A stretch of DNA of 64,000 nt from Collinsella aerofaciens (GTDB lineage: Bacteria > Actinomycetota > Coriobacteriia > Coriobacteriales > Coriobacteriaceae), in NCBI RefSeq assembly GCF_015554145.1, contig NZ_JADNHZ010000008.1:1-64000 (forward strand), given 5' to 3'. Under the pieces are notes generated by a model. That model was not told the origin of the DNA and did not search any database. It saw nothing but the letters and a program-made list of their open reading frames with translations. Made by a program: the position numbers and the translations under genes. Of the stretch, positions 176 through 1,236 are shown in pieces (positions within the stretch are counted from its first letter, which is position 1; every line of letters starts with the position of its first letter).

Positions 176-1084
176 CTAGAAGCGGTTGCCGCGGAAGCCG
201 CCACCGTTGCGGCCGCCACGGTCGCCACCGCGACCGCCGCGGTCGTTACCACGGTTGCCGCCGAAGCCACCACGGTTGCCACCGCGATCGCCATAGCCAC
301 CACGGTTGCCACCAAAGCCGCCGCGACCGCCACGGTCGCCGCCACGGTCGCCAAAGCCGCCACGGCCACCGCGATCGCCACCGCGACCGCCACGGTCGCC
401 GCCACGGCCACCGCGATCGCCAAAGCCGCCGCGACCGCCACGGTCGCCGCCACGGCCACCGCGCTCGTCACGGCCGCCGCGAGGACCGCGGTCCTCGTCC
501 AGGCCCATGGCGACGAGCGGAGCGATAACCTTATCGAGAGCGGCCATCAGCTCGGTAGCCTCCTCGTAAGAAAGCTCGGGCAGGAGCTTCTCCTTCTTGT
601 TGGCAAGCTCGACCAGGCCCTCAGCGGCATCCTCGGCAGCGAAGACAACGATCTTGCGCATATCGCCCTCGGCGTCGTCGATGCGGCCGACCAGATCGGC
701 AGCCTCGGCCTCGGCCATCAGGCCATCGAGCTCACGAAGGCGCATGCCCAGCAGGTCGGACATTTCCTTCTGCTCCATCTTGGGCTTGAGGTCAAGAAGC
801 TTGATGGCGCGCTCGATGTTCGCCATGCGCTCGGCCTTGGCCTCCTCCTCCTTGGAAATAGCAAAGCGACGGCTGCGCAGCAGGCGGGCGGCCTTCTGCA
901 TCTTGTCCATCAGCTCTTCGTCATCGTAATCAGCGGCGGCCTCGACAACCTCGGCCTCCTCGGCGGAAACCTCGTCAGCAGCCTCAACCTCGGCAGCTTC
1001 GGTCTCCACAGTCTCGACTGCCTCAACCTCGGCAGCCATGGTCTCGTTCTCGGTCTCGTTCATGATCTCTTCGTTCTCAGACAT
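176..1084 (-). CDS. Winged-helix protein with acidic N-terminus and RGG-repeat tail
   Basis: 302 residues in three parts. Residues 1-55 are very acidic (Glu/Ala-rich, low complexity). Residues about 55-195 are helical and resemble a MarR-type winged helix (segments around MEQKEMSDLLGMRLREL and RKIVVFAAEDA). Residues about 198-302 are almost entirely Arg, Gly, Asp, Phe and Asn, with about 20 RGG tripeptides, many as DRGGRGG or GGFGDRGG. RGG boxes bind RNA and promote phase separation in eukaryotic proteins; in bacteria they are uncommon, so RNA binding here is inference. The repeats show in DNA as 9- and 18-bp degenerate tandem units. The start is ATG at 1084 after an AGGAGTCTC-type SD. The stop lies next to the hairpin of structured RNA copy A, which may help end the transcript. 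Specific function unknown. Confidence 0.85.
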   Translation of the reverse strand: MSENEEIMNETENETMAAEVEAVETVETEAAEVEAADEVSAEEAEVVEAAADYDDEELMDKMQKAARLLRSRRFAISKEEEAKAERMANIERAIKLLDLKPKMEQKEMSDLLGMRLRELDGLMAEAEAADLVGRIDDAEGDMRKIVVFAAEDAAEGLVELANKKEKLLPELSYEEATELMAALDKVIAPLVAMGLDEDRGPRGGRDERGGRGGDRGGRGGFGDRGGRGGDRGGRGGDRGGRGGFGDRGGDRGGRGGFGGNRGGYGDRGGNRGGFGGNRGNDRGGRGGDRGGRNGGGFRGNRF

Positions 1085-1236
1085 GAGACTCCTTCTTGGC
1101 CCTCTCGGGCATCATCGCCCCATTCGCGGGGCCCGTCGCGCACTCTTTGCGCTTTAAACATTCATGCCTCTCGGCAAAACGTCCATTAGTTTATGGTGTC
1201 GTCACCCAATCTAACTGCAGAATCTATGTGCACACA

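Follow-up and report, generated by a model that had tools for sequence, protein, structure and literature searches.

The 64,000-nucleotide stretch of Collinsella aerofaciens DNA analyzed here (the window) encodes, on its minus strand, a MarR-like protein that ends in a dense RGG tail and whose gene is preceded by a structured 5' leader. Together, the hairpin leader and the tail of this protein suggest RNA binding and self-control. Judging from sequence comparisons, we see an even chance that, taken jointly, the protein descended from a DNA-binding MarR repressor and was converted to an abundant RNA-binding protein with feedback via its own leader.

The open reading frame (ORF; 176..1084, minus strand) was intact, with 302 codons for a protein of 302 amino acids, and had a good ribosome site (AAGAAGGAG; Shine-Dalgarno AAGGAG at 1089..1094, minus strand). 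Three regions, all on the minus strand, were distinguished: an acidic, presumably disordered N-terminus (residues 1-51; 932..1084), a MarR-type winged-helix core (residues 52-196; 497..931), and an RGG tail (residues 197-302; 179..496) recognized by composition and selection, which started at about residue 197 and left 104 amino acids beyond the aligned core. The tail contained 20 RGG and 23 RG motifs, with 51% Gly, 25% Arg, no Lys, and a net charge of +15, while the N-terminal 46 residues had a net charge of -18 and the core -15. The original prediction of about 20 RGG repeats following an acidic N-terminus and a MarR-like fold was thus confirmed, and the opposite charges that it had placed at the two ends of the protein are conserved in the clade, every tabulated member of which has an acidic N-terminus. 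The host genome comprises 2.45 Mb in 48 contigs, and the core was 99-100% identical to the nearest named records, from Collinsella sp. and C. aerofaciens.

An AlphaFold model of the core (18 sequences; pLDDT 88.9, pTM 0.67), computed as a single chain, showed the MarR order of elements, including a wing. All 50 listed Foldseek matches were MarR-type regulators, by title or by known identity; TM values were low because the first helix was modeled as one long rod. Profile comparisons were more distant, with no Pfam MarR match for the window protein, only a weak NCBIfam match to HpaR (E 0.0046), and weak matches of the family profile to MgrA, HosA, and MepR (best E 0.019). MarR was listed for none of 18 clade cores compared with the curated MarR models, and L096 scored 20.3 bits against a MarR cut-off of 24.6. 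Canonical relatives from the same order scored above the model cut-offs, and some of these also carried RGG tails (L103, L107, L112). On a 79-core tree, the window clade (45 rows) formed one side of a branch with an SH-aLRT of 99 and a long stem, and the presence of the RGG tail required seven changes on this tree.

Using the core as query, orthologues were found in 59 of 65 family genomes; the six without a match were two incomplete genomes and the four of genus g2. The gene is therefore dispensable in genus g2, in which 4/4 genomes lacked an orthologue. Across the class, 87 of 296 genomes matched at E <= 1e-3, and 56 of these (E <= 5e-13) represent the clade of the window protein, whereas a phylum sample yielded matches in 15 of 396 genomes (E <= 1e-8), all from the same order. 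Among proteins taken from 67 clade genomes, 63 had at least five RGG in the tail, and the four exceptions were two contig ends (L097 and L117), a masked tail (L075), and a 1-nt frameshift (L073). Intact tails (n = 59) ranged from 55 to 160 amino acids with 5-30 RGG (median 19), an Arg content of 22-30%, and no more than 2.5% Lys. Within the tails of several species (L059, L060, L062, L086), we also observed a non-repetitive motif, SHGKFGAPRMGFGGSRGGHSDRG, with one-residue variation.

Selection on the tail acted at the level of the protein. The 21 near-identical genomes had 21 versions of the tail DNA and only eight versions of the tail protein, and 67 tail codon columns varied synonymously only, compared with five with amino-acid variation; if all single substitutions are considered, 264 would be synonymous and 672 nonsynonymous, and thus the amino-acid repeat of the tail has been kept. 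In these C. aerofaciens-type genomes, dN/dS (Nei-Gojobori, summed over non-independent pairs) was 0.187 for the N-terminus, 0.036 for the core, and 0.022 for the tail; in eight other groups the tail ranged from 0.04 to 0.20, and values for the N-terminus spanned 0.08-0.67. Tail dS is probably inflated by repeat shuffling. The original prediction was to fall if the tail varied randomly or was absent in close relatives, and it was upheld, with composition constrained and length variable. A functionless expansion of a low-complexity repeat would account for the 55-160-residue spread in length, the detectable DNA repeats, and the raised dS suggestive of repeat shuffling; against the strong constraint at the protein level, the retention of at least five RGG in 63/67 relatives, and the RGG tails in other branches of canonical relatives, we regard it as very improbable.

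The gene was originally predicted to sit beside a structured RNA, which holds in that RNA structure is present, although as two separate elements: at about 1085-1181 a conserved 5' leader, and at 24-175 a repeat of the dispersed kind. The leader (1085..1181, minus strand) has a start inferred from a likely -10 box, TAAACT (1188..1193, minus strand), and this start is a prediction; of 43 leaders from relatives, 37 contained TACACT or TAAACT. It contains four hairpins, all on the minus strand: TGCC-GAGA-GGCA (1165..1176), GCGCA-AAGAG-TGCGC (1138..1152), GCCCC-GCGAAT-GGGGC (1117..1132), and GCCC-GAGA-GGGC (1099..1110), the last directly before the ribosome site. The window leader alone folded moderately better than shuffles (z -2.8), and predicted folds had the hairpins leave the Shine-Dalgarno unpaired. 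Searches of the leader and of the 3' repeat against Rfam returned no match at the gathering threshold (only tRNAs matched) or up to E 1, and we consider the leader a new candidate cis-regulatory RNA.

For comparison among relatives, the 37 boxed leaders of 43 upstream regions were reduced to 31 by dropping six (near-duplicates L039, L057, L058, L072, and L087, and the distant L095). With a stem of at least 4 bp and at least two GC pairs, a criterion that was set after viewing the leaders, the 31 leaders contained 50 GNRA hairpins (at least one in each), versus 2.6 ± 1.5 (maximum 6) in 200 dinucleotide shuffles. Control ORFs had 0.04-0.09 such hairpins each, 69 other ORFs at the loci averaged 0.04, and the RGG-MarR gene was the only one of 32 window ORFs with two. 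A scripted count found at least one GNRA hairpin in 65 of 67 clade loci, and the two zeros (L030 and L077) resulted from a wrongly chosen start, their hairpins being visible when the leaders were compared. The loops were GGAA (36), GAAA (7), GAGA (5), and GGGA (2), and loop type was conserved across genera while stems changed. The stems vary by species yet remain complementary, which is in part a product of how the hairpins were selected. Usually the last hairpin ended shortly before the Shine-Dalgarno; since it often has another loop (e.g., GAG in L037-L073), "GNRA array" serves as a summary only. Nine leader versions occurred among the 21 near-identical genomes; as read by eye, the differences between them fell within spacers, within a single loop, or immediately 3' of the final stem. 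Column-wise covariation was rejected as a line of evidence because MAFFT alignments failed to keep the hairpins in register.

Hairpins of this kind were tied to the gene. A genome search for a hairpin at a start (G/C stem of 4 bp, GNRA loop, within 6 nt of AGGAG) gave 23 matches versus 21 in a reversed control, seven of them with complementary stems by eye, and by this pattern no other start site in the window's genome had such a hairpin. A regulon of similar leaders was rejected, as by this pattern only the hairpin of the RGG-MarR gene lies at a start site, and control by CsrA through GGA-type loops was likewise rejected because no CsrA family was detected in the genome.

Canonical relatives differed from the clade both upstream of the gene and in the winged helix. 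GGTACC, a criterion also set after viewing the sequences and expected 0.03-0.06 times per 200 nt, was present upstream of 22 of 34 canonical relatives, often as ACAGGTACCTGT, versus 1 of 57 distinct clade upstreams. GNRA hairpins occurred in 4 of the 34 canonical relatives, with 30 lacking them. Upstream regions of canonical Coriobacteriales MarR genes (L099-L112, L124-L143) share a ACAGGTACCTGT-type palindrome, a likely operator. An RGG tail is compatible with the palindrome, since L103, L107, L111, L112, and L130 have both. At recognition-helix positions that we take to be DNA contacts in MarR proteins, a Ser/Thr present in 28/28 canonical proteins (excluding branch g34) was found in 0/45 of the window clade, which instead had Glu (34), Ala (6), Asp (2), Val (2), or Leu (1), following a Leu-Arg fixed in 45/45. 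The winged helix had a mean net charge of -5.3 in the clade versus +0.5 in canonical proteins. The wing Asp-x-Arg was intact in 45/45 clade members and two recognition-helix Arg were fixed; because the wing motif is intact, the protein may still bind DNA, with another operator.

In branch g34 (six rows: L124, L134, L135, L136, L139, L140), the tails had 10-22 RGG, the winged helix was acidic (-6.8), Ser/Thr and GGTACC were both missing, and the leader showed a GGGGC-TACG-GCCCT hairpin; this branch may have begun the same route from DNA to RNA independently. Among the canonical relatives, several f3 proteins carried His/Gly-rich tails or N-termini.

Codon usage resembled that of ribosomal-protein genes. 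Relative to a reference of nine such genes (themselves 0.585-0.839), the codon adaptation of the gene was 0.79 (0.76 for the N-terminus plus core, 0.84 for the tail), ranking first among 42 window ORFs, whose median was 0.42. A search of the genome gave no match to the cold-shock domain (CSD) of CspA, to Hfq, or to CsrA, and many Collinsella genomes, the host included, are without a detected CSD protein. The domain was present in 246 of 296 class genomes; assuming the same 296 genomes in both listings and with no correction for descent, it was missing from 32 of the 56 genomes that have the clade versus 18 of the 240 that do not (present in 24/56 versus 222/240). By eye, absences fell at about five places on the core tree, which is not a species tree (C. 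aerofaciens; L038/L063/L073/L080; L085/L087; L077; L097/L098), and a link between CSD loss and the RGG-MarR clade is only a hint. Strict replacement of CspA was rejected, given that 24/56 clade genomes keep a CSD.

Of the original prediction, the architecture, the opposite charges, and the link to a structured RNA held, and RNA binding has circumstantial support from the leader, the loss of the DNA palindrome, the altered recognition helix, and the ribosomal-protein-like codon usage. We propose that a protein of MarR repressor origin would now act as an abundant RNA-binding protein whose winged-helix core probably still dimerises as in MarR proteins. Each dimer would then present two RGG arms, cationic and available to RNA, along with a pair of acidic arms from the N-termini, and the acidic arms could compete for the RGG tails. 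Instead of a DNA palindrome at the promoter, the protein would bind its own 5' leader at the tandem GNRA-type hairpins adjoining the ribosome site, and this binding may limit translation or stability of its mRNA, such that feedback would set the protein level. RNA binding, dimerisation, autoregulation, and a general RNA-chaperone-like role are all inferred. A broader scenario, in which a Coriobacteriales MarR lineage switched from DNA to RNA by gaining an RGG tail, rewriting the recognition helix, losing the palindrome, and acquiring a leader as RNA operator, and became a major RNA chaperone with which some lineages could do without CspA, is one that we hold tentatively and with more doubt than belief.

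Two other readings of the same observations were weighed. The protein, as a MarR regulator or something nucleoid-like, could still bind DNA at a new operator; its tail would then promote oligomerisation or add affinity for DNA of a non-specific kind, and the leader would serve another role. The MarR fold, the fixed Asp-x-Arg and recognition-helix Arg residues, and the retention of GGTACC by RGG-tailed canonical relatives fit with this, and yet GGTACC is absent from 56/57 clade upstreams, the winged helix is acidic and has lost Ser/Thr in 45/45, and codon usage is far above that of ordinary regulators, so that this account appears rather unlikely. Alternatively, hairpins at the 5' end can lend stability to the mRNA of an abundant protein with no feedback involved, and the protein may be an abundant RGG RNA-binding protein whose leader does no more than make the mRNA stable or raise its translation. 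The ribosomal-protein-like codon usage and the unpaired Shine-Dalgarno agree with such a leader; the conservation of loop type across genera despite changing stems, and the association of the hairpins with the clade and their restriction, by the pattern used, to a single start site of the genome, speak against it, and we judge it unlikely.

The proposed conversion of a MarR repressor to a self-regulating RNA-binding protein can be set beside several known systems. The window protein shares its winged-helix fold and order of elements with MarR regulators (PF01047/PF12802; MepR, MgrA, HosA), and homologous canonical relatives from the same order score above the cut-offs of the MarR models; unlike these regulators, the window clade falls below the cut-offs, has an acidic winged helix that has lost Ser/Thr, lacks GGTACC, and combines an RGG tail with an RNA-hairpin leader. 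TcaR binds single-stranded DNA (PMC3448645) and a paper cited by PMC8510525 describes SarA as RNA-binding in its title, which offers a precedent for single-stranded nucleic acid binding by a MarR fold, although the binding site there is the winged helix itself and these proteins are not known to have an RGG tail or such a leader. Human RGG proteins that bind their own mRNA are discussed in PMC11789052, and FUS and FMRP resemble the window protein in their dense RGG with Asp and Phe/Tyr spacers and in own-mRNA self-regulation as treated there. They differ in that the window protein is bacterial, has a MarR core with no RRM or zinc finger, and is proposed to recognize hairpins rather than G-quadruplexes. 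Condensates of bacterial Rho are driven by a disordered region, as described in PMC13269538. Among the matches listed from the open-access literature, there was no RGG-tailed MarR protein, nor such a protein in Collinsella. Cyanobacterial Rbp proteins are abundant and RNA-binding, with a Gly-rich tail, in hosts without CspA; they have an RRM domain rather than a winged helix, and no homology is claimed. The same genome also encodes a DEAD-box helicase (L114:1122-3344, G000:C9) that is its second protein rich in RG and has a similarly Arg/Gly-rich C-terminus; it is a helicase, its tail is less regular, and the leader sequence examined has no GNRA hairpin next to the start.

If the conversion took place, a classical bacterial transcription-factor family would be seen becoming an RNA-binding, self-regulating protein, with possible intermediates, combining an RGG tail and a DNA palindrome, surviving in related genera. 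It would also give bacteria a further RGG system, in common members of the human gut flora in which Hfq, CsrA, and in many cases CspA were not detected, and would make testable how such bacteria manage RNA.

At the other end of the gene, the repeat at 24-175 abuts the stop codon and is strongly structured (fold z -10.4), with related copies at many sites of the genome. It follows the gene directly, whole or in part, in 21/21 C. aerofaciens-type genomes and in no other species examined. A conserved operon partner was rejected, the only shared synteny being an upstream aminotransferase-like gene in 21 of 36 loci. This neighbor, judged from its sequence to be an aminotransferase fused to an XRE-type HTH, has an N-terminal HTH, lies about 2.3 kb upstream in L039, and is often divided from the RGG-MarR gene by a hairpin and a T run.
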